Positions 7,507 to 55,206 of a stretch of 64,000 bases of DNA are shown piece by piece (position 1 is the stretch's first letter; the number at the start of each line of letters is the position of its first letter). The notes under the pieces are model-generated. The model was given only the letters and a program-made list of their open reading frames with translations. It was not told the DNA's origin and did not search any database. Position numbers and translations under genes: made by a program. The DNA is from Takashimella koratensis (lineage: Eukaryota > Basidiomycota > Tremellomycetes > Trichosporonales > Tetragoniomycetaceae): the NCBI GenBank assembly GCA_003116875.1, contig BCKT01000004.1:1794891-1858890 (forward strand), in the 5' to 3' direction.

Positions 7507-8553
7507 ATGACCTCCGTCTCCTCGATCAGAGGGATCATCGCCGCATGCTTAGAGGCATGGGGTAGCGCTTGGGCTACCGGTGAAGATAGCAAAGAGCAGC
7601 CGTTGAGTGACTTTGCTGATACCGAATTGGCGCTGTTAAACGATGCCCAGCGAAGCAAGATTGGAAACGAACTGAACGAAGTCACAGAGGGCGTTGTCAA
7701 CACCCTCTGGACTAAAGTGCACCAAAGGCGCAACGGGCAAACACGTGGATGGATTCCCGGGCTGCAGTTCTCCTCTGGGCTGTCGTTGAGACGGCCTTTC
7801 GTACCCGAATCATCAAGTGAACACGGTCGTGAGGAGGAAACCAGCAGGGCTTCTCCTGTGGATCTAGTCCTCGAAGTCTGGTGTGACACCCCTGGGGTCT
7901 ATGGTCCGATATTCAAACATGGACTCCAGTGCGCTATCAGCCTCGATTCTACCAACCCTGCCGGCCTTTCCAAGAAGGAATTGGCGAATATCACAGACGC
8001 CGATCTTCGGTACTTGATAGACTACACCGAGACTCACGTAGAAGCAGCCAGAACCCCTCAAGCGAAGGTGTTCAAAACTATAACTAAAGACGTTTTGGAC
8101 TGCCTAAAGTCGTGGACCACTCCCGATGCCGGCTCACCTTCCACAACTAATAGTAGTGACTCAGAAGATGATGAGGATGCCGAAAACTGCGACCGGTTGG
8201 AACTTGCCAAGCTTTCAGACCATCAACTGGAAAAACTGCAAGCTGCAATCTCAGCAACGATGGAAGCAATCGTCTCCGATTGTCGAGAGAAAGCCGCCAA
8301 TTTCAGAATGCCGACCGAGGACAGTCTAAGATATAGGCTGTCGATCGGCGTTTCGAACCAAGTAGGAGAAACCGGTACTCATGAGAGACTTGAGATTGAC
8401 ATTACTTATCTCGCTGGTCACCAGACCCTGCGTGCGGCATGGCTCCGCTGTCTGGTCTCATCGGAACATGATGATGGCTTTTGGGGGATGAATTGGACGT
8501 CGGGTGAGCATACGCAGGAGTTGGAACGGTTATCGCGAAGTGACCGGGACTAA
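7507..8553 (+). CDS. Island family protein, member 1 (unknown function, intronless)
   Basis: A single uninterrupted frame encodes 348 residues. The ATG at 7507 is the first in frame after a stop. Five blocks recur in order in the genes at 9239, 11453 and 14387. Block A is FADTELALLNDAQRSKI. Block B is VDLVLEVWCDT followed by a tyrosine/leucine strand. Block C is YTETHVEAARTP. Block D is LSDHQLEKLQAA then CREKAANFRM. Block E is LEIDITYLAGHQTLRA. An acidic Ser/Asp linker separates C from D. There is no signal peptide or membrane segment, so it is probably a soluble intracellular protein. I recognise no known domain. The closest relative in the window is the neighbour at 9239. Absence of introns contrasts with the intron-dense genes elsewhere in the window. 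Confidence 0.75.
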   Translation: MTSVSSIRGIIAACLEAWGSAWATGEDSKEQPLSDFADTELALLNDAQRSKIGNELNEVTEGVVNTLWTKVHQRRNGQTRGWIPGLQFSSGLSLRRPFVPESSSEHGREEETSRASPVDLVLEVWCDTPGVYGPIFKHGLQCAISLDSTNPAGLSKKELANITDADLRYLIDYTETHVEAARTPQAKVFKTITKDVLDCLKSWTTPDAGSPSTTNSSDSEDDEDAENCDRLELAKLSDHQLEKLQAAISATMEAIVSDCREKAANFRMPTEDSLRYRLSIGVSNQVGETGTHERLEIDITYLAGHQTLRAAWLRCLVSSEHDDGFWGMNWTSGEHTQELERLSRSDRD

Positions 8554-9238
8554 ATCAGATGCTCAGTATGATATACAGTATCAGTTAAGTAGAACGAGCT
8601 GATGCAGTGTGTATTGATGGCAGGAGACATATGTGGGAGGATATGAATTTGGCATTTCGTCCGCTGTGTGCGTCCAAAAGGGCGTGGTCGAAGGAGGCCG
8701 CAATGAAGATCGCCGTCATAAACGATGGTCAAGCTACATACAGATGGAGATCTGGGCTTATGCCCAGCACCGTTTTACCGAATGTCCTTTCTACGTTTTA
8801 GACTGATCTCTACTCGTTGCGAGGGCGGTGCGTAAAAGCTTCACACTGCAGTTTGCTGGCCAATCCATGCGTGAGTTGGAGTTCATTCGATTGCACATTT
8901 TTGTTGTCGAAAAAAGTGGGCTTAGGTGATTTGAAATGGCATTGTGCTCTTTTGTACCCCAACGTTTTGGTGGAAACGTTTCAAGATATTTGCTCAAAGG
9001 AGACCGCTGTTGCAATGACGGTCATCAGCTGTTTCATGGCGTTTTGCTTGGTGAGACGGTGTTGGCGGCCTTCCATGTTTGACGGAGCAACGCACGTCAC
9101 GTATCAATCCTTTCAACTCGTTTGAGGCTTGGTATGCGCGCTAGAGTAACACTGGAACATATAGTTGTCCATCAGTTGATAACAGTAGGATCCACTTTCT
9201 GCCGCTCGCGTCGCCTTGGATTTGATCAATTAACAACA
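8554..9238. other. Intergenic region between island members 1 and 2
   Basis: The 685 bp hold no credible gene. The sequence is more AT-rich than surrounding coding DNA and contains several short frames without family blocks. The part just upstream of 9239 is the likely promoter of member 2 and contains TTGATCAATTAACAACA immediately before the ATG. Confidence 0.4.
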
Positions 9239-10288
9239 ATGGCCGACGATCACAAGCAATCACTCGGCGAGAAGAGTCTTGTCGATTCCGTTGCAATGCA
9301 ACTCAATCAGCGATTCGATGCCATTAACAGGACTTGGCCGAATGGCGAGGATGATTACAAGCAATCCCTCAGTGACTTTAATTACACTGAATTCGCCCAG
9401 TTGAGCACGAAACAACGAGGCGAGCTCAAGTCCGAATTTCCCGACATTGCCAGAGATGCCGTTAGACCATTGCTGACTGAAGCCAGGAAAAAGGTCGATT
9501 ATCAAGATGAAGCCTTATCCACCTTACGAATCACGCCTAAGCTGTCGTTCCGGCGACCTTTCAGGTCTCCTTCTACGACTGAGGGCCAATCAAAAACTGA
9601 CAACACAGCCGATTCAAAGGCGGTTTTGCCAGTAGAACTCGTGCTTGAATTCTCTTGCGACCAGCCAGACTCTCACCAATGGATATACGGAAGTCAATGT
9701 GTCCTTAACATCAGCGCCACCATGGAGAACGGCTACACCGACGGTATTTGGGCTCGTATTGCTCGAGAAGACATGATGAAGCTCGATAGATACACAGAAA
9801 CAGACGTAGATGCCGCCAAGACTCCTATAGACAAACCCATTGAAGACGTGGTGCGACAAGTCTTGGACAGCTTGAAGGAATGGCTGGAACCTGACCCTGA
9901 TGCTTCTTCTTCCGACTCGGACGATTTGAAGCATAAATCCGAGGTTATCAGAAAGAAACCTGAACCCAAACCGTTGATGCTGGCAAAGCTAACAGACAAC
10001 CAGATGATGTCATTAAGAGCCACATTGAAGACCGCTACTGCGAACATGGTCACCAATTGCCGAGAGAAAGCTGCGAACTACCGAATGGATGCGGAGCAGA
10101 CCTTGGATTTCACCGTGAGATTCAACATTCTCAGCACAAATTATGATCTGCCCCAGCCGGGGGAATTGATTGAAATTGAGATCGAATATTCAGCTGGCCT
10201 TCAGTCCCTTCATTCCCAAATGCTCAGCGCTACCGTAAATATCAATAGTGTGAACGGGGTTCGGGATCTGAAATGGGGGGATTCATAA
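9239..10288 (+). CDS. Island family protein, member 2 (unknown function, intronless)
   Basis: A single exon encodes 349 residues from MADDHKQSLGEKSL. It is the closest visible relative of the gene at 7507. Shared segments include LSDF.YTEFAQL (block A), VELVLEFSCDQP (block B), YTETDVDAAKTP (block C), LAKLTDNQMMSL and CREKAANYRM (block D), and IEIEIEYSAGLQSLHS (block E). The Ser/Asp linker before block D is followed here by a short Lys/Pro run. It ends in LKWGDS. The CREKAAN[FY]RM motif is the strongest signature of the family and suggests a structural or binding role, but no enzyme motif is visible. The gene is in tandem with members 1 and 3. Confidence 0.75.
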   Translation: MADDHKQSLGEKSLVDSVAMQLNQRFDAINRTWPNGEDDYKQSLSDFNYTEFAQLSTKQRGELKSEFPDIARDAVRPLLTEARKKVDYQDEALSTLRITPKLSFRRPFRSPSTTEGQSKTDNTADSKAVLPVELVLEFSCDQPDSHQWIYGSQCVLNISATMENGYTDGIWARIAREDMMKLDRYTETDVDAAKTPIDKPIEDVVRQVLDSLKEWLEPDPDASSSDSDDLKHKSEVIRKKPEPKPLMLAKLTDNQMMSLRATLKTATANMVTNCREKAANYRMDAEQTLDFTVRFNILSTNYDLPQPGELIEIEIEYSAGLQSLHSQMLSATVNINSVNGVRDLKWGDS

Positions 10289-11452
10289 CACGAGGGCGAA
10301 GAATAGTCGGTGTTTTCAAAGAGAATTTATCAGATCGTTGTCTTCTCATTCCTCGAAGAGACGCACTTGGACTGGTCATTAAATTAGACACGTTTTTCGG
10401 AATGGAGCGAAGATCTTGATGGTACTGTAGTCCACTAGGGCACAACTCTCCTAATTGTTTGTGGACGTTGGTAAAGGTCCTAAGCCGTGGGCTACATGAG
10501 TCTACTCTCACGTCCTCTCTGATATGTGTGTAGGGCAGTGGCCGGCGTTTTATCATTACACCACTGGGGAGGTCTTGCTTGTCAGGTATGGCATCTGAAG
10601 ACATCTTGAAGAGGCCCGAGCGGTCCCGAAGTACCTGGGATGCCGAGAGGGGACCGAGCGGGGTGGCGCAGGTCGAGGCCACGGAGAACAATAAAGACCA
10701 CTAGTAGGGGCGATGCAGCGCTGCGGCGCACGAGCCCGCGAGCGGCTGCGGCCTCGGGGAACGACGGAGATGCATGAACGACGCGCAAGCGGTCGAGGCC
10801 GATCTGGTGCATTTAAATAGCATTCTGTAGCGTCGAGAGATGAATCCCCAACCCGTTGAAACCTAACATTGCTCTTCCCCTCTGGACCTCACATAACAGT
10901 GGCGCGAGTATGTGAGAGTCAAAAAGAGGGCTGGGTGAGTGCGCTCCCTTGATCTCCTCGGGTGATCGCCAAACGCAACGTGCATACATTGAGCGCAAGC
11001 ACGCAGTACTACATTGATATGTTCATAAGGACCTCGGTTACGGTGATTGGCTGCCTTCGACGTTTTATTTGATATTGTTGCCATAACGGACAAGGCTTGA
11101 AAGGAGTGTCATTTCATGTGTCCATACGTGGTGTTTCACAGTCAAGCTTCACAGTCAAGCGCCGCGTTTCACGACAGCAGATGAAAGGGTGCCCATGAAA
11201 CGCGTATATGCTCCTTGGGCGCTGAGGAGAGACAACTGACGTATAACTTGAAAGGAGAGGTTGTCGATGTCGCTTAGTTGATAAGGCAAGTGAAGGGTGG
11301 AAGGCGCCGGCACAGGTTGAGAGATATTACAGTGGAGCTCGGTAAACATATATAAACAACAATTTCGGGTCACGACAACGACAATTTTTCAAACACTTTC
11401 AAGCCGCTCAAACAAGTGAACCCCGGTTACCGTCTTTCTTGACTTCATTAAC
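10289..11452. other. Intergenic region with TATA element before island member 3
   Basis: No convincing gene is seen in these 1164 bp. Around 10620-10760 there is a GC-rich patch (for example GCGCTGCGGCGCACGAGCCCGCGAGCGGCTGCGG, cut here only as description) flanked by AT-rich DNA. A TATATAAA box lies at 11349-11356, about 100 bp ahead of the ATG at 11453, a sensible core-promoter spacing. A short direct repeat of CACAGTCAAGC occurs at about 11138-11160. Confidence 0.4.
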
Positions 11453-12388
11453 ATGTCTCAGCTCTTTTCCACGAGGGAAGATGCTCAGACGCTTTTGGAA
11501 GCTCAGCTGAATGCAAAGCTGGACTCAGTGGAATGGTCTTTAGCCACTGATATCGACGCGACCGACGATAGAAACCAACAATTGCGTCTCCTTCGAGGTA
11601 CCCACTACCAAGCCTTGAGCAAAGCACAGTATCAATCGATCATAAGTCAGATTTCCGAATTTGTTTTCAGATCTCTGGAAGTCTTGTGGAGCGATGAAGA
11701 GTCGGAGGCTCGATGTCTTCACCCAAAGGTGTGGTTCCGTTTACCTAACGAGCAAGACGTCTCCGAAAAAAGACCACTCAGAGCAGTCGAACTCGTGATG
11801 GAGTTGGGGTGTACGAAAGCCAATGGAGAATGGGATGATGGAACCGTTTCCACCTACCTTCTCGATTCTCGAAGGGAAAGAGGTTTCAGCGAGCAGCATT
11901 GGTCATATCTCATTAGTAACGCGATGTTTGAGAGCATCGGATTCACTGAGGTGGCCCTGGCAGAAGCCAAGACGGAGGTGAGCACGATTGCCGCCCATGT
12001 GGCGGAGGATTGCAAGGGTCTTATCGACACATGGGAGAGGTCCAACTCAAACGATGATTTGGGTGATCAGGCCCAGTCTAGGAGTGAACAGGACAAGAAA
12101 CTTAAACTCTCCGAAGAGCAAAGGTCCAAACTTGAGAAGGCCATGCAAAGCCCCTCTGTGGACATTGTGAACGAATGTCAATCAGGAGCTCGCAACTATA
12201 GAATTCCTGAAAGCGATGCCTTAACATACCTTGTTCGCGGATTCAACCCGATTATCGGCAAAGAAGGATACTGGTCCACTATGGACGTCGATTACAAGGC
12301 TGGAGAACAGGAGCTATTCGCAGTGCAGCTGTTTGGTACGATCGATGCACAGTGTGAGGATGGCTTCAGTGGATTAGGCTACAGGTAA
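11453..12388 (+). CDS. Island family protein, member 3 (unknown function, intronless)
   Basis: A single exon encodes 311 residues from MSQLFSTREDAQTLLEAQL. The family blocks are present but more diverged than in members 1 and 2. They are HYQALSKAQYQSI (A), VELVMELGCTKANGEW (B), FTEVALAEAKTE (C), LKLSEEQRSKLEKAM then CQSGARNYRI (D), and MDVDYKAGEQELFAVQ (E). The loop after block A is shorter than in the other members, which explains the smaller size. It ends DGFSGLGYR, and member 1 likewise ends near DGFWGMNW. A TATA box about 100 bp upstream suggests it is expressed. The protein looks soluble and function is unknown. Confidence 0.72.
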   Translation: MSQLFSTREDAQTLLEAQLNAKLDSVEWSLATDIDATDDRNQQLRLLRGTHYQALSKAQYQSIISQISEFVFRSLEVLWSDEESEARCLHPKVWFRLPNEQDVSEKRPLRAVELVMELGCTKANGEWDDGTVSTYLLDSRRERGFSEQHWSYLISNAMFESIGFTEVALAEAKTEVSTIAAHVAEDCKGLIDTWERSNSNDDLGDQAQSRSEQDKKLKLSEEQRSKLEKAMQSPSVDIVNECQSGARNYRIPESDALTYLVRGFNPIIGKEGYWSTMDVDYKAGEQELFAVQLFGTIDAQCEDGFSGLGYR

Positions 12389-12942
12389 CTCGATAGTGAA
12401 GAGACATACTTGGTGACCATATGCAATAGCTAATGAGAATGCACTGGCGCCACCACCAGAGGTATGGCTGACGGCACACGTTCGGGTGATGTTTCAATGT
12501 GCTCGCCTGTACTGATCTCCAGGGCCTTACACTTACATATGTCAGAGACTCAAGGAGTAACTGTAGAGTCAAATCCTGACGTCATAGAGCAGTTAGCATG
12601 CTTGCAAAAATGAAAAATTGCAAAAACGAAATGTCCTTTTTTCGTGACTTCCCGCAACAAAGTAGACGTAAACACCGCGTGAGTCATGGAAATGCGTGAC
12701 TCAGCGGGAACGAAGTGATAAACCTCAAGCTTGATGTGGAATAGGCCGTTGTGGTAGCTGAGTAAGCCTCTCCGGATCCTTTCAGTGTGTCGAGAGACCA
12801 CTTTCAGACCTGCCAATCATGCCCCGACGAGTGGTATTAGAAGATAACAACACTTAAAGACCGCTATCCCCATGACAAACTTCCTCTTGCTTCGCTCACC
12901 GTCTCACTTTGTTCTGACTTACTTGCATCCTCAACCACCATC
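12389..12942. other. Intergenic region between island genes
   Basis: The 554 bp contain no supported gene. Near 12600-12660 there is an A/T-rich stretch with near-repeats of TGCAAAAA (TGCAAAAATGAAAAATTGCAAAAACG) and a short inverted TGACTC/GAGTCA pair around 12684-12705. The region is probably the promoter of the gene at 12943. Confidence 0.3.
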
Positions 12943-13479
12943 ATGGCGAGTGCCTTGAAACAGAAACTCATTTCGAGAATCGAGTCTGAGTTGCAGCCCG
13001 ATTTGTGTTCTTTTCGAGACGTATATGAACGCACCGTTGACCTCATTCAATGGGGACTGAATCCGTCTTGTTCTCGGTCGTTACATACGTCGAAAGACCT
13101 CACGAAATTCGTGCTCGACAAACTGAACAAAAATTGCGCCTCGATTGTCCAACGGACACGCGATCAGATCCACAAAATTTCGCCCGGAGCCGGACCCCAA
13201 TCGAACGACTACTTTTGGGCGCTCGACCGCGAAGACTGGTCTATCCAGTCATTCATCATCTGGGAAGGGTCCCACTGTCGCCTCATTCTCGAAGCCAATG
13301 TCCAGTCCACTACCGGATCGAGCATCACTTACATTGCCTTCGATATCGATATCCTGGAGAGACGATCCTCTTGGATGTTCGAGGTGATCCCCGATGCAGC
13401 CAGTTCCGAGGCGGGCTGGTCGACCCCGGAAACCTCGACCCCGGAAACTTCGATCCCGAGTTCCCCTGACACTGATTGA
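12943..13479 (+). CDS. Small unknown protein, possible truncated island-family member
   Basis: A single exon encodes 178 residues from MASALKQKLISRIESEL. The middle part (LDKLNKNCASIVQRTRDQIH) loosely resembles family block D, and the following strand CRLILEANVQ...ITYIAFDID resembles block B or E. The clear CREKAAN signature is absent. The C-terminal 25 residues are Ser/Thr/Pro with a nearly repeated STPETSTPETS unit. The ATG follows a CACCATC context, and the gene lies between members 3 and 4 on the same strand. I would call it a shortened or rapidly evolving relative, but this rests on weak similarity and should be tested by profile search. Confidence 0.55.
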   Translation: MASALKQKLISRIESELQPDLCSFRDVYERTVDLIQWGLNPSCSRSLHTSKDLTKFVLDKLNKNCASIVQRTRDQIHKISPGAGPQSNDYFWALDREDWSIQSFIIWEGSHCRLILEANVQSTTGSSITYIAFDIDILERRSSWMFEVIPDAASSEAGWSTPETSTPETSIPSSPDTD

Positions 13480-14386
13480 ATCATTCAATCCGATTCCACC
13501 ACGTCCCCCTTCATTGTCGGTACCAGCCATACTGTTCATACTCTCATATGCATGTCCGCTGCAGGAGAAGAAACTGACTCCGACCGTTTCTCTGACTACA
13601 TACCCCAAAAGCATCGTCCTTTCACAGGGTACGGCTTTATTTTATGCTATAGGATTATGCACACTTTCTGCTCCCTCCATTCAGTCCCACTAAAGTCTCT
13701 CTACAGGGTTGTCGTTGTGGACAATGAGCTTTTGCCCCTCGTCTGAGGCGTGTTTTTCACGTCTGAGTTTCAGTCTCACCCTTGAGAGGTCAAGACAGAC
13801 AGTAAGGCAGCCCAGAAGGCTGACAGCGCATGACCCCTCTTTCTTCTGCCTCTTCTCCCTCCTCATCCCTTGTTTAGCCTTCCTTCAGAGCCTCGACTTA
13901 TGTAATTAGCAATTCATGTCGAATCCTGCAACAACCTTCACATGTCTGCAGCTCTCATTGCCATGTTGTTCATCTAAGGAGGCTGGGAGACGTATTGGCT
14001 GTGGGTGGAACAAGAGCTCGAGTCAACCAAGACGAGGAAGCCACTTCACCACTCCACCGCTCCATCATTCAATGGAGGAGCGCGTTGCACAGGAGCTGAG
14101 GTGAAAAGAAGGATTTTTCACTTCGTGTTTCGAAAGGCATGTGTACGCGAGCGAAGTCGAAAAGGCCTTCGACATGTTCTGTTTCTCAATCAGTTCAAGC
14201 GGCGTGAAGTACGGACACTTCCTCCCTCTTCCCTGTTCCCCTCTCTCTCTACCTCTTCAATCCCCTCTACCTCACCACCATACGTCGATCACAATGTGAC
14301 CCGAGTCAACCAACACCCTGAGCGAGTGGGTAAATCGGCTCTCGCTCTCGAGCAACGCGGCCGAGTTCTCCGACGCTTGCCAGCAA
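13480..14386. other. Intergenic region and leader before island member 4
   Basis: No separate gene is supported in the 907 bp. Short frames exist but lack start context or family similarity. From 14218 to 14280 the plus strand is a CT-rich tract typical of fungal promoter/leader DNA. It is followed by an ATG-TGA pair at 14294-14299 that is in frame with the downstream gene (see findings). Confidence 0.4.
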
Positions 14387-15457
14387 ATGTCGGAGCAAGT
14401 TACCCAAACACTTCAGACCTGGCGAGCTGCGTTGGACGCCACCGACGCTGGATCCAACTCGCAAATCGTCGATCGCATGGGAGCGACTCGTTTCAAAGAC
14501 TACACCGAACTTCAGCACAACTACTTGCTTGGCACAATTCGCCCGCTTGTCGACCACTCAGTTCGCACCATCTCCCAATCTCTTGAACGCAACTCGCCTG
14601 CCTTTCTACGAGACACAGCGGATGTCATGCTTTTCAAAGCCAACATTGGGGCCATACCCTGCAAAGCAAACGACGAGTTCGACGCCGACGAAGATGCCAT
14701 GACGACTGGCATCCGAGCCAGCCACGCAGAGGCAGAGCTTGACGGAGTTTCCTCGGGCGATCTTGTCATGATGATCAGCTGTTACGAGAAACAACCAACC
14801 ACCAATTCGCCGGGTCCGTATCCGAAATGGTTGTACGGTCTCGAACACACGATCTCAATTGATCTCGAGCACGGCGACTTCACTACTCGTTGGGCGTACG
14901 TTCCAGATGACGCGAAGCTGTACTGGGGCAAAAGTACAGACACAAAGTGCAAAGAGGCCCAAATGAGCTTCGACGTGTTCGCTGAAGGTCTCTACACGGA
15001 CATCATCGATCGAATGGCCCTCAAAGACAGCAACAATGAGAGTGAATCGATTTCGATTCCCGATGCCCTGTCGGTGCTCTCCCCTCAGCAGCTTGACTCT
15101 TTCAAACTTGAGCTCAAGAAAATGACGATCGAAATCGCGAGATGCCTTCGCAAAGCTCCAAACTACAAGATCGATGAGTCCGACGATCTCAACACCGATT
15201 TGGATGTCTCGTACTTTCATCACGATTCGTCGACGGATTCTGATTTCCAAAGCCTCGCCGCTTCTGAAAGGTGCAACGAACTCAGCGACAACGTTTTCGA
15301 AATCGATTACAGTGCGGGATCTCAGTCACTCCGGAAAATCAAAGTCGAAGGGGTCGTCGATCCCGGTGTGTCGCCCTCGGGGCTCCGAAGTCTGACTGGA
15401 GACTTGATCGGGGTCCCTGACGATAAGTTTTCGGGACGGCTTTCTGGGTTTGTTTGA
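14387..15457 (+). CDS. Island family protein, member 4 (unknown function, intronless)
   Basis: A single exon encodes 356 residues from MSEQVTQTLQTWRAALD. Family blocks are RFKDYTELQHNYLL (A), GDLVMMISCYEKQ and WLYGLEHTISIDL (B), STDTKCKEAQMSF (C), LSPQQLDSFKLELKK then CLRKAPNYKI (D), and FEIDYSAGSQSLRKIKVEG (E). Block E continues with a Gly/Ser/Leu-rich tail. The ATG at 14387 aligns with the start of member 1, so I prefer it, although the same frame stays open upstream to 14300. GC content and codon use are closer to the housekeeping genes than those of members 1-3. No known domain, signal peptide or membrane helix is visible. Confidence 0.75.
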   Translation: MSEQVTQTLQTWRAALDATDAGSNSQIVDRMGATRFKDYTELQHNYLLGTIRPLVDHSVRTISQSLERNSPAFLRDTADVMLFKANIGAIPCKANDEFDADEDAMTTGIRASHAEAELDGVSSGDLVMMISCYEKQPTTNSPGPYPKWLYGLEHTISIDLEHGDFTTRWAYVPDDAKLYWGKSTDTKCKEAQMSFDVFAEGLYTDIIDRMALKDSNNESESISIPDALSVLSPQQLDSFKLELKKMTIEIARCLRKAPNYKIDESDDLNTDLDVSYFHHDSSTDSDFQSLAASERCNELSDNVFEIDYSAGSQSLRKIKVEGVVDPGVSPSGLRSLTGDLIGVPDDKFSGRLSGFV

Positions 15458-15996
15458 GCCTTCTTCCAGTTGCGTTGCATGAATGTTTTGTTGTCGTGTG
15501 GCGCCTTCCATGGCTTGACAAGTACAGTAGCTTTGATGAAGCTAGCAACTGAGCTTAATTGTGCGAAGGCAAGGTGGTTCTGCTAACTGCAACCCAAAAC
15601 GAGGAGACGCCGCCCGCCAATCGCAACGTAGTGAGAAAAAAAAAAAGCCCCTTCAAAATACCATGTCAGCGACCGCGAGACTCCTTCCATTGGCGGTGAC
15701 AGGAGTGGGATTTCATTCTCCTTTAACATTTTTTATGTGTGGGTCTCGTTGGGCATAAGCAAAAGAAGGATGACCACCGTGAGGCTGTTCAAAATGACTG
15801 CCTCGGTCTTGGGGTGGAGAGGGGGAAAGTGGCACAGGACACTTGGGGTGAAGCATAGGGGCTAGACCCAGGAAGGCTCTGTCATCCTTTGAGCGGTGTC
15901 GGAGTGATCGTATCCAAAACCTTTCAGCGTGGAGCGGAGATGTAATTACGCCCACCAGGGTAAGAGCACTCGTCCTTCGCGCTTTATCCGTATTCT

Positions 15997-16062
15997 TCTC
16001 TTCATTGGCCTCTTCATTGACCTCTTCATTTCCCTCTTCATTTCCCTCTTCATTTCCCTCTC
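15997..16062. repeat. 12-bp minisatellite, unit CTCTTCATTTCC
   Basis: About five near-perfect copies of a 12-nt unit (CTCTTCATT plus GGC, GAC or TCC) lie head to tail. Three consecutive central copies are identical. The array sits in the likely leader of the broken gene at 16111. Confidence 0.85.
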
Positions 16063-16110
16063 CGTTGATAGATACCTCGATTGCATACCGTCGACCGCTA
16101 CTTCGTCCTC

Positions 16111-16805
16111 ATGAGGAAGTCTCGCGCCATACACTCTTCCTCGCAGAAGAAGACCTACAACTCTGCTCCAGAGGCGATTCACGCGGCTGAGAAATCAGTC
16201 AAGTTGGAGAGATACCTCGAAAGGGCCCAGATCAAGAGCCTCCGCAAAAAGATTGGCACTCACCTGAAAGAAATTGTCAGGATCGCCCGGGCGCAATCAT
16301 TGACTCTCTCCAATCCACTGTCACGACTTCTTTTTTCAATCGACCTACTAGAGATCTTTCGACAGAGCACCAATGGGAGACCGAGTACGCCCCCTTTCAA
16401 CAAGAGGAATGGACTGTGGAGCCGAGAATCACCGCTCTCGATGACTTCCTCGGAGAGTCCTACAAGCAGCTATCGCCGATCGACCGCGCGGCACCGTCAT
16501 ACCTCTTCACTCTGGCGACAAGCTTGAAAATGACAAAGGAGGGAAGCAGAACGAGCAAGGCGAAGGAGACGACCAAGACGACCACGACGACCAAGACGAG
16601 TCAGACCTTCTTCATGTGCGAGCTCAACCATTCTTTCACAGACGGTTTTGCTCATTTCCAGGTAATCTCGGACGGCAGACATCAAGACCACTGGAAGACG
16701 ATCAAGAGCAGTTGCCCTGCTACGTGGGCGGCAAGAGGATCTGGCCTGGGAGACGAGGCGGCGGTCGATGAAGGAGAGGCTTCAGATGATAATATTACAC
16801 AGTGA
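16111..16805 (+). pseudogene. Frame-broken relic in the island, possibly a family relative
   Basis: An ATG at 16111 opens a frame reading MRKSRAIHSSSQKKTYN. Its segment AQIKSLRKKIGTHLKEIV has the helix pattern of the region around family block D. Near 16280 protein-like sequence moves to another frame (…IIDSLQSTVTTSFFN…WETEYAPFQQEEW…), which stays open to a stop at 16805 and ends DEGEASDDNITQ. No good donor/acceptor pair joins the two frames, so an indel is the simplest reading. The 3' half has a Lys/Thr repeat (about 16545-16600). Either it is a decaying gene or an unusual intron was missed. Confidence 0.4.
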
Positions 16806-17254
16806 TTTGTATCTGAGTGACCGTTCTCTCACCCCCGCTATACCATCTCTCTCGAGTTCAGTTTTTTTTTTCTGCGTGTGAGGTAGCACTTTACTGGATA
16901 TACATTTAATGCAATGGTGGGGGGCAAGGAACTAACGGTCGAAGCGGAGTTGACATGTACTGCGGTCGGTTCGGGAGCTGCACTACGGGGAGGGCTCAAA
17001 CCACTGCGAGAGAGAACTCACCTTTGAGTGCACAGCCTCGTCCAGTGTTGAAACTCAGCTCCTCGTATTGTCCCTGTCCTTTGACCATGAGAGTCGAAAG
17101 GCAAGACGGGAGCGTGTCGGGGTCCAGTGGTCTCTCAGTTTTCTCCAATCCCTCCTACTTCCCCATTTTTCCTGACAACTCACTTCTCCAACCAAGAGTG
17201 ATTCCTTCGCCTGCTCTCTCCTCTGCTTCGTACTCTCCATACACTTCGCACACC

Positions 17255-17986
17255 ATGCCCACTCATCTCACCAAGTCTATCGACATCATGGATCCACGCA
17301 CCGTTTCCATTGTCGCGTCGCCTTCCGATTTCTCGGAAGAGGAAACGATCGGTTGGATCAAGTCTGACATCCACGAAAACGCCGTGCGAATCCGCTTCTC
17401 CGAATTGGAAGAATTGGAAGAGTCGGGGACGTCTGAGCTTTGCCTGGCGAGGTTCGAAGATTGGGAAGAAATGAAGCCCTTGCCGCTTCCTACTGGTTGC
17501 AGCCCCAATCTACAGGACTGCACTCAACACACCAAAAACACGGGACAGTTGCCGCCTCCGGATCTGTTCAGACCGCAGTACCCGAATTTTGGAGACGTGG
17601 TGCAAGCACTCCAGGACCAGTCTGAGCTGTTGTACGAGACGAGCAAAATGCACTCGAGCTTGGAACCCCACCTCTTGTGGAAGACGGAAATGCGGCTCTT
17701 CATGATTGACAAGCCCGACTCGAACCGATTGATCAGCCGATACGCCAAAGAACTCGTTTTCTGCCTAACCCGCAAGTCTTCCGAGACTTCAGGGGTTGAC
17801 ACGGTCCTTCGCGCCACGATCGACCCCGTTCTTGAGGAGGGATGCCGGTCCCTTCAGATTCGAACGATGGAGGAGGACAAAGCCGAAGCTCGAGAGAAAG
17901 GTTACTTCAACCTGGCGTACCCGGCCGAGTCTGACGAATCGAGGCGTGGCAACCTGGACGGGCTGGCGCTCATCAAGGAGACCTGA
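17255..17986 (+). CDS. Unknown acidic protein, possible distant island-family member
   Basis: A single exon encodes 243 residues from MPTHLTKSIDIMDPR. The frame is open further upstream, but the CACACCATG context and the CT-rich leader favour 17255. The N-terminal 60 residues are acidic with a run of ELEELEESG. The C-terminal part contains YAKELVFCLTRK and ATIDPVLEEGCRSLQIRT, which follow the spacing and hydrophobic pattern of family blocks D and E but lack the exact motifs. It is the last intronless gene of the island before RRP12. Function is unknown; homology to the four clear members is an inference. Confidence 0.55.
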   Translation: MPTHLTKSIDIMDPRTVSIVASPSDFSEEETIGWIKSDIHENAVRIRFSELEELEESGTSELCLARFEDWEEMKPLPLPTGCSPNLQDCTQHTKNTGQLPPPDLFRPQYPNFGDVVQALQDQSELLYETSKMHSSLEPHLLWKTEMRLFMIDKPDSNRLISRYAKELVFCLTRKSSETSGVDTVLRATIDPVLEEGCRSLQIRTMEEDKAEAREKGYFNLAYPAESDESRRGNLDGLALIKET

Positions 17987-23314: not shown

Positions 23315-24690
23315 CTAGATGAGGTATCCGTCCCCGGCCCTTTGTCTAAGCTGAGCCACCTCCTTCTCCAACTCGGCTATGCGCGCTCGAGATTCGGCAA
23401 GCGCAGCGACCGACGCTTCGTCCCATGATCCGACCCCGACGGCGACTGTGATATGACCGATAGCACGAGAGACAAGCGGGGCGAGGCAGAATGACGAGGA
23501 AGAGAGTGTCAGTAGATTGACCAAGACCCTGGTTGGTCCAAAAGAAAATCAGCAATCGAGTTGGACTAACCTCCGCCGACCTAGAAAGGAGTCAGCTTTT
23601 GGTCTCTACAAAGTGAACAACAAGGATTAAGGAGATCATCATGATGAGGGGAAGAGTGGTGTCAGTGTGTAGATCACTTACCAGCTTGATAAGTCGCCAA
23701 AGACGGAGCAAGACGAGCAAGCCAGCGAGTTCACGCTCTTTCCCCTGTTCACGGTGTTAATGGCTTCCACATCTCGATGGGAGAGTAAGTGACTAGGTTC
23801 GGGATGGACGAGTCACACTCACGCGGAGGAAAATCTCAAAGACTGCCGTACCGAGCACGACCACCGCATCGAACAAGTGCAAGTACGCATCTACACAAAG
23901 TCCATCAAGCTCCTCATGCTGAAAAGACCGACCTTCCAAATCCACTCACGAGTCACCGCGGGCCTCGAGGGACTTATCCCAAACCACCTCGGCCCAAACG
24001 CATAAAAGCTCGCCGGGATTTCAAGGAGGAAAAGACAGGTGATTGTTAGGGAAAGGTAAGAGAGCGTTTCGAGCCAGTCTGGGGATTCGGGGGTTTCGGA
24101 TCCGCATGTTGGGTGAAGCACGGCTGTGAGGTAAGTGAGCAGATAGAATAGAGTGGGAGGGTAGTGGGTAGGGATGAGACTGGGTTGTGGGATTGGGAGA
24201 GAAAGAGCGGGAGGAGGGGGGGNNNNNNNNNNNNNNNNNNNNNNNNNGGGGGGGGGGGAAGGGCGAGACATACTGTAGGCGACGTCGGTGAGGACAAAGG
24301 CGGCGTCGATGGAGATCTGCAAGTGGACAGAGGACCCGAGTACATAACGTTAATACAAGGACGACATGGCTTGCCCGGTCTGTGCGCAGGACGACGGCAA
24401 CGAGTGAAGGTTCCTACTACCCAACCTCGGTAGCAGTGTCGACCCCGAGCACGGCTCGAGCCGGCTTCCTTCCCAAGTTGGCATAGCCATTTCTCCAAGT
24501 CCTTGACGACTCTAGCCCGTTGGGCGGATTGCAGACCTGATCTCAATACACCACTCACCAGGGATAGAACAAACCGGTGCATCCGTTTACTTTCCAGATG
24601 TTCACCCACCCAGACTTGGCGCTCCGACCGACCGGGGTCGAGTTCCTCTGCTGGGCGAGGGACAACGAGGAGCGGAGTGGTTTCGGCCAT
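23315..24690 (-). CDS. HVCN1: Voltage-gated proton channel (Hv1/HVCN1 type)
   Basis: Seven exons (24690-24559, 24316-24274, 24123-23950, 23890-23823, 23744-23682, 23580-23571, 23445-23315) keep frame and give 206 residues. There is a voltage-sensor domain with no separate pore, followed by a coiled coil. S1 is FVLSLISIDAAFVLTDVAY, with the Asp that serves as selectivity filter in animal Hv1. S2 carries LLEIPASFYAFGPRWF, with the conserved Glu. S3 is HLFDAVVVLG. S4 is LLVLLRLWRLIKLV, where two gating arginines are kept and the third position is lysine. The C-terminal ARIAELEKEVAQLRQR heptads suggest a dimer. Such channels extrude H+ from acidified cytosol at the plasma membrane. One exon is only 10 nt, and a 25-N gap lies in the second intron. 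Confidence 0.9.
24223..24247. other. Assembly gap (25 N) inside a poly-G tract
   Basis: Twenty-five N bases are flanked by G runs on both sides (GGGGGGG before, an 11-12 G run after). The gap falls in an intron of the proton-channel gene. The true length of the homopolymer is unknown, but no coding sequence is lost according to the exon model. Confidence 0.95.
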
Positions 24691-54270: not shown

Positions 54271-55206
54271 ATGAGCAACGAACAAGCTCCGTCCGACGGA
54301 GAGGACTGCAAGGGTTGGAGGCAGAGGAACAGAAAGTTTGCCGCTTCTCTTCTTCCACCCTCCGACGTCAATGGAGCTCATGGTTCCGCAGCGACAACTT
54401 CCACTTTTCTGGAAAGCTCTCTCATCCCCCTTCTCGACGACACCTACCTGCTATTGCTGAAGGGGGCTGAAGACGATGTTCGACAGCTTGAAACCTCGCT
54501 CTCGATATTCAGGGACAAATACGACACCTGCAAGAAGTCGTGGCAGTCCTTGGAGGGCGAACTCAGGGACCCACTCCAGCCCCTTTTCACAGTCACTGCT
54601 GTCATGAAGAAGCCCCCAACACTGGAATCCGCGTGGACGACTCTGTCCAAATACTGGTCCGGGCGAAACAGCACGGGAGGATCCAAAGACGAAATGCTTT
54701 GGGGACACAAGAGGGGTGCCAACCGGTGCATGGCAGCTTTGAAATACTTTCACGACGAACTTTGCAACACCCAAGCCCTGACAGCAGTCGCCCAACGTTC
54801 GATCACTGTCGGGTCCCACCACATCCGCAACAATCAAAGAAGTGTCCGATCACCGATCACCGGAGCTCGCAAGAAAGAGGAAGTATACTCACCTACGAGT
54901 TCCGCACAACACTCAGCCTCTCAGTCACCCACGTCCTCCGACCTGGAGTCAATTTGGGATCCGTCAGGCTCAGTGAACCTCCACACCCCGACCGAGCTCA
55001 GCCGCACGCCCTCAGACATCAGCCTTGAGGACATTGCAGCAACCCCCATGACGAGCGTTTCCTACTCTTCGCTCTTCGAAAAACTTCGCGACGAACGCCC
55101 TCCCGACTTGTCGAAAATGACTCGACCAGCCTCGCACCGTCGTTCAGCAAGCTCCGGTGCCCGATCAAAGCACCCTCGAGCCGTCTGTTCAGAGAGAAGC
55201 CTCTAG
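54271..55206 (+). CDS. Unknown protein with helical core, 3' end uncertain
   Basis: The frame encodes 311 residues from MSNEQAPSDGEDCKGW. An open frame extends upstream to 54070, but that part looks like translated leader. The core is helical (LESSLIPLLDDTYLLLLKGA, DDVRQLETSLSIFRDKYDTC, WQSLEGELRDPLQPLF) and is followed by a Ser/Thr/Pro-rich tail. Near 55060-55200 a second frame also reads protein-like and continues past the stop at 55206 (PLGSPNIPNDTSSPSATT ... DHDEWMQEQLW). The true C-terminus may therefore lie in that frame through an unseen intron or a frameshift. No known family is recognised. Confidence 0.45.
   Translation: MSNEQAPSDGEDCKGWRQRNRKFAASLLPPSDVNGAHGSAATTSTFLESSLIPLLDDTYLLLLKGAEDDVRQLETSLSIFRDKYDTCKKSWQSLEGELRDPLQPLFTVTAVMKKPPTLESAWTTLSKYWSGRNSTGGSKDEMLWGHKRGANRCMAALKYFHDELCNTQALTAVAQRSITVGSHHIRNNQRSVRSPITGARKKEEVYSPTSSAQHSASQSPTSSDLESIWDPSGSVNLHTPTELSRTPSDISLEDIAATPMTSVSYSSLFEKLRDERPPDLSKMTRPASHRRSASSGARSKHPRAVCSERSL

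Follow-up and report, generated by a model that had tools for sequence, protein, structure and literature searches.

Four divergent, tandemly arrayed genes with uninterrupted reading frames in the tremellomycete Takashimella koratensis encode proteins of two homologous units

A 64,000-nucleotide stretch of the Takashimella koratensis genome (GCA_003116875.1; 25.1 Mb in 24 contigs), comprising C4:1794891-1858890 (contig BCKT01000004.1) and hereafter called the window, contains an island of four genes, g1 to g4, that a first-pass annotation of the sequence had described as intronless paralogs of an unrecognised protein family. All four are present as uninterrupted open reading frames (ORFs) at the starts proposed there (Table 1). 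Random codons (3 stops in 64) would give a stop-free run of such length with a probability of 3e-7 to 4e-8 per gene, the base at -3 of the ATG is A in three of the four (C in g4), and codon scores of the coding frame exceed those of both forward off-frames in every case. At the start of g2, an in-frame ATG lies upstream at 9134 and would extend the protein to 384 amino acids (aa). A 26-base near-repeat (81%; 9245-9270 and 9350-9375) doubles the conserved stretch DDYKQSLSD, so the true start or the N-terminus of g2 may differ from those of its sister genes.

Table 1. Coordinates of the island genes and associated features within the window
Feature	Position	Strand	Description
g1	7507..8553	+	single uninterrupted ORF, 348 codons (348 aa); leave-one-out profile score 160.3 bits
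g2	9239..10288	+	uninterrupted ORF, 349 codons (349 aa); leave-one-out profile score 157.1 bits; AlphaFold model me1efad517d68
g3	11453..12388	+	uninterrupted ORF, 311 codons (311 aa); leave-one-out profile score 98.5 bits
g4	14387..15457	+	uninterrupted ORF, 356 codons (356 aa); leave-one-out profile score 46.9 bits, lowest of the four
N-terminal repeat unit of g1	7507..8007	+	predicted helices 4-24 and 46-74, then four strands (AlphaFold; half-profile match)
C-terminal repeat unit of g2	9797..10285	+	predicted helix 198-214, Ser/Asp-rich linker, helix 253-278, strands 289-348
Solo long terminal repeat (LTR)	10580..10868		TGTCAGG...CTAACA, TTGCT on both sides; outside the gene family
ORF 12943	12943..13479	+	178 aa, inside the island; membership unsupported
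Relic 16111, first piece	16111..16524	+	MRKSRAIH...; second open piece, in another frame, to 16802; membership unsupported
ORF 17255	17255..17986	+	243 aa, or 343 aa if the ATG at 16955 is the start; membership at best marginal

Relatedness of the four products was measured by leave-one-out comparison, in which a hidden Markov model (HMM) profile built from three core proteins was run against the fourth, with 500 shuffles per gene as the null. The real sequences scored 46.9-160.3 bits, compared with best shuffle scores of 6.7, 5.2, 6.3 and 6.0 bits for g1 to g4 (376, 445, 402 and 364 of the 500 shuffles returned a score). As a positive control, hhalign matched g4 to the profile of the other three with a score of 89.4 and a probability of 97.6. 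Similarity among the core four lies above that of shuffled sequence across most of their length, and they are true paralogs arranged head to tail. The five conserved blocks reported earlier do keep their fixed order in the four-protein alignment, but their motifs are looser than had been written, 25 of 417 columns being invariant (for example T50, L134-V135..C140, T186..A193, L251..Q255, C274..A278.N280 and Y317.AG.Q.L). The block given as CREKAAN[FY]RM is replaced by CQSGARNYRI in g3 and by CLRKAPNYKI in g4.

Pairwise identity is 34.0% between g1 and g2, the closest pair, which lies at the 5' end of the island; it is 24.2% for g1-g3, 20.5% for g1-g4, 22.6% for g2-g3, 23.2% for g2-g4 and 21.6% for g3-g4. 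By profile score g4 is the most distant, yet identity places g3 and g4 at about the same distance. The age of the copies was addressed at fourfold sites, by comparing third-base agreement at identical A, G, P, T or V residues with the expectation from codon usage. Agreement was 11/34, 7/23 and 8/20 for g1-g2, g1-g3 and g1-g4 (9.4, 5.8 and 5.4 predicted) and 7/18, 10/22 and 4/16 for g2-g3, g2-g4 and g3-g4 (4.5, 6.0 and 4.3 predicted). Synonymous sites are thus nearly saturated, which indicates that the copies are old and that the ratio of non-synonymous to synonymous change (Ka/Ks) would tell little; together with identities of 20.5-34.0%, this leaves the recent expansion first suggested for the island without support.

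The same annotation had raised a retro-derived origin, in which the copies lost their introns by way of reverse-transcribed mRNA. The uninterrupted ORFs and the LTR copies in the genome, with one solo LTR between g2 and g3, are in keeping with this. The latter is a 289-base repeat that matches at least 39 other places in the genome over most of its length at 85-96% identity, one of these places being adjoined by two short partial matches. Five-base repeats flank the element in the window and in three of four further copies examined (TTGCT, TCCGG, CGACG and GGGTG), the fourth, L042, being without them, and from the repeats on its two sides the element is read as a solo LTR. Two other intergenic stretches gave no match elsewhere in the genome, and the solo LTR therefore does not explain the gene copies. 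Searches of the same genome found no intron-bearing parent, although they could overlook one that is both diverged and interrupted by introns, and the head-to-tail arrangement on one strand fits tandem duplication of one single-exon founder. We regard retro-derivation as very improbable. Elsewhere in the genome, same-strand LTR pairs such as C14:23371 and 28674 may represent a full element.

Profiles of the N-terminal and C-terminal halves of the proteins, built from alignments with no residues in common, matched each other with a score of 37.8 (probability 75) in one direction and 39.6 (probability 81) in the other. Column shuffles reached at most 20.8 (199 of 200 scored), 100 shuffles of six-column blocks at most 20.7 and the reversed profile 14.6. 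We take this to show that every one of the four proteins is built from two homologous units in tandem, with a variable, Ser/Asp-rich linker between them; this internal duplication is absent from the first-pass annotation. AlphaFold models were obtained for the g2-led alignment (me1efad517d68; predicted local distance difference test (pLDDT) 72.0, predicted template modelling score (pTM) 0.58) and for the g1-led N half (best model m5f5add142656; pLDDT 76.8, pTM 0.70). In both, helices precede four strands, each 8-12 residues long; in g2 this pattern occurs twice, with strands at 97-105, 132-142, 147-158 and 166-174 in the N unit and at 289-299, 309-319, 322-333 and 341-348 in the C unit; those of the g1 N unit lie at 87-95, 119-127, 137-146 and 154-162. 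The unit is accordingly modelled as a predicted helix A, helix B and four-stranded sheet, a cystatin/NTF2-like type of arrangement.

This predicted arrangement bears on an alternative that we consider somewhat unlikely, under which the proteins would belong to a fold family already known (cystatin-like, NTF2-like/VirB8-like, RsiV/DUF3298-like, or tandem RWD pairs of the kind found in kinetochore subunits) but would have diverged so far that no sequence signal of it is left. The likeness to cystatin-like folds (e.g. 4r80 and 1cew) lies in the predicted helix followed by four strands, and the doubled units resemble latexin or fetuin, which carry doubled cystatin-like units; 2bo9_B and 7uai_H turned up with poor scores. 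The core proteins differ by the extra helix A, by the long inter-unit linker and by the absence from all four of QxVxG and PW, the motifs of the cystatin family. The PatG DUF (4uvq), 3cyg and RsiV (5jen) also count among the closest known systems. Tandem RWD proteins have a YPxxP motif, which is not universal, and the order helix, four strands, two helices. A Foldseek search of the predicted structures gave no significant match.

All four core proteins are acidic (isoelectric point 4.56-4.86), and none has a hydrophobic stretch of membrane length, the best 19-residue hydropathy mean being at most 1.01. Over the first 30 residues, the best 10-residue mean is 1.77 in g1, 1.11 in g2, 0.44 in g3 and 0.21 in g4. 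Residues shared by all four, such as C, T, Q, G, A, N and Y, occur at isolated positions and make up no obvious catalytic set. Tentatively, and with a good deal of doubt, the products may be soluble intracellular binding or adaptor proteins and not enzymes or secreted proteins, a two-unit protein of that type being the simplest interpretation.

In protein searches of the genome itself, in which the best candidates alone were scored, full-length g1, g2 and g3 each found two other copies and g4 none, whereas a search with the g2 C unit recovered the four core genes and nothing else. With the full profile, an HMM scan of the surrounding 264 kb revealed no further copies at E ≤ 3. The copies found by these searches lie solely in the island, which supports the local tandem origin proposed for them. 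Against a database of 5.8 billion proteins, g2 gave no relative at E ≤ 1 (1432 candidates), and the four-row alignment, with words drawn from all four proteins, gave none at E ≤ 10 (5737 candidates); this search depends on shared 5-residue words, and relatives sharing none with any of the four would escape it. Pfam returned two matches alone, both at E 0.087 for g2 and below the cut-off; the best hits in NCBIfam (E 0.034) and in the phage families of PHROGs (E 0.11) each involved a single member and assigned no family; and the defence families of PADLOC and the PDB sequences yielded no match to the core four. As far as these tools reach, the family is indeed unrecognised, as first proposed. 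A viral and a prokaryote origin were rejected: 32 pattern matches in viral contigs and 9 in prokaryote genome contigs gave no confirmed relative, and the best structural matches in BFVD were poor (E 2.3e-3 with TMq 0.13, then E 0.013 with TMq 0.24).

Such negatives also arise when relatives of an ordinary conserved family are simply missed, and homolog detection failure is treated as a general alternative to a new family in one study (PMC7660931). Here the alternative is a real contender, if short of an even chance: paralogs only 20-34% identical were sought by a search that requires shared 5-residue words, and the own-genome search with full-length g4 missed its three paralogs. What speaks against it is that the alignment search, for all its candidates, found nothing, and that the homoserine kinase gene of the window, run as a control, retrieved 5325 proteins at E ≤ 0.001 from 7998 scored candidates. 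Within the scope searched, the genes are novel as a family and ordinary as a kind, that of lineage-restricted tandem genes.

Clustering of diverged, lineage-restricted genes also invites a reading as fast-evolving conflict or self-recognition genes. One study of Neurospora describes lineage-specific genes near telomeres that cluster with HET-domain genes, a role in genetic barriers having been postulated for such genes (PMC10684091). For the present island we hold this to be improbable. The strong divergence within the cluster favours it, but a scan of 17 window ORFs, among them several single exons, revealed no HET, NLR or other conflict domain, PADLOC is silent as noted above, and with fourfold sites nearly saturated positive selection between the copies is unreadable. 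The contig end lies about 150 kb away and the last 553 bases read there lack telomere repeats. Compared with orphan tandem gene families of fungi, the island shares clustered paralogs, the lack of detected homologs outside the genome and the lack of a known domain; it differs in the internal duplication of one unit per protein and, by present evidence, is not subtelomeric.

Three distant members had also been listed, two further genes and a relic (Table 1), and they fared less well than the core. ORF 12943 scored -1.9 bits against the family HMM, under a best shuffle of 9.2 (432 of 500 shuffles scored), and in hhalign 9.5 and 15.2, where the best of 40 shuffles reached 18.9 and 19.9. For the relic, ORF 16072-16524 reached only E = 4 with the family HMM, and hhalign scores of its pieces (13.8, 16.9, 18.6 and 8.6) fell below the best of 40 shuffles (16.4, 18.8, 21.9 and 17.7). 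ORF 17255 scored 1.7 bits, under a best shuffle of 8.9 (382 of 500 scored), and 14.8 with the N-half profile (best of 40 shuffles, 18.0); with the C-half profile it reached 21.2, compared with 18.3 for the best of 40 shuffles, and one of 300 further shuffles reached it. As this is one of eight comparisons made, we judge the match marginal. ORF 12943 and the relic fail against shuffled sequence, and 17255 keeps a marginal claim, at best, through the C-half profile alone. Codon scores of 12943 and 17255 are coding-like (0.147 and 0.127 per codon), and these ORFs may therefore be genes of another kind; in own-genome searches each matched itself alone. The two open pieces at 16111-16802 stand in different frames and overlap at 16191-16524, which points to a disrupted gene, an intron or a misassembly, and 5.3 copies of a tandem 12-base unit, CTCTTCATTGCC, lie just upstream of the 16111 ORF (15998-16061).

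Neighbouring genes in the window encode an N-myristoyltransferase (2831), RRP12 (from 18305), the homoserine kinase (26507), a GAF/histidine kinase and an MFS transporter (58292). The best named relatives among the 120 matches listed for the homoserine kinase belong to Vanrija, Kwoniella, Naematelia and Cryptococcus, all tremellomycete genera. A tree that joined the window sequence to 21 named rows places it inside a 19-row group with support 100/100 and with no finer supported placement; among these rows it is most similar to Vanrija albida, with 82% identity over 240 columns. By tblastn the homoserine kinase gene falls into two parts. Four relatives (P0009, P0058, P0102 and P0104) are named 'Trihydroxynaphthalene reductase' at NCBI, which looks like a misnomer that has spread among fungal records. 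Uninterrupted ORFs as long as those of the core genes also occur outside the island: those of at least 300 aa that begin with ATG number 29 on both strands of the 264 kb, the four core genes included. Elsewhere in the window lie an uninterrupted 311-aa ORF at 54271-55206, with no Pfam match at E ≤ 0.01, and a run of 25 N at 24223-24247.

In the reading that we favour, and to which we give about an even chance of being correct, this tremellomycete carries an old tandem array of single-exon genes, restricted to its lineage, whose products are soluble, acidic, two-unit proteins with a putative binding role. A single-exon founder would have arisen by internal duplication of one unit, and tandem duplication of that founder would then have yielded the array, whose copies would since have diverged strongly, with the core of both units retained. 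With low confidence, the helix-plus-sheet faces might hold a partner protein or ligand, the partner varying by copy.

Several observations weigh against this reading. Codon bias in g1 is weak, one reverse frame scoring slightly higher than the coding frame (0.086 vs 0.059). Fourfold saturation is incomplete, agreement lying somewhat above codon usage: pooled over the six pairs, which are not independent, it is 47/133 against 35.4 expected, a value reached by 16 of 1000 simulations. The half-profile match spans only 85 columns, from helix A via helix B to strand 1, and first, narrower halves without helix A matched more weakly (probabilities 25 and 10; P 8e-4 and 3e-3). Confidence in the models, built from four sequences, is moderate (pTM 0.58 and 0.70), and two of the five g1 N-unit models are poor (mean pLDDT 51.1 and 45.3); the sheet is read as antiparallel from its short connections, the model not giving the strand pairing. 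With the moderately hydrophobic stretch in its first 30 residues, g1 may be targeted to a membrane or an organelle. The putative binding role is drawn from predicted fold type and soluble composition alone, and lineage restriction depends on searches that require shared 5-residue words.

A stronger version, which we think distinctly improbable, would make this an undescribed family with an undescribed unit fold of helix A, helix B and a four-stranded sheet, doubled in each chain around a Ser/Asp-rich hinge and born in one tremellomycete lineage, with the array having diverged toward different partners, possibly in self- or parasite-recognition. For now the importance of the family is modest. 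If the array of old two-unit genes that we favour is truly lineage-restricted, gene birth, internal duplication and tandem amplification would be traceable in a single array, with four diverged products to compare.

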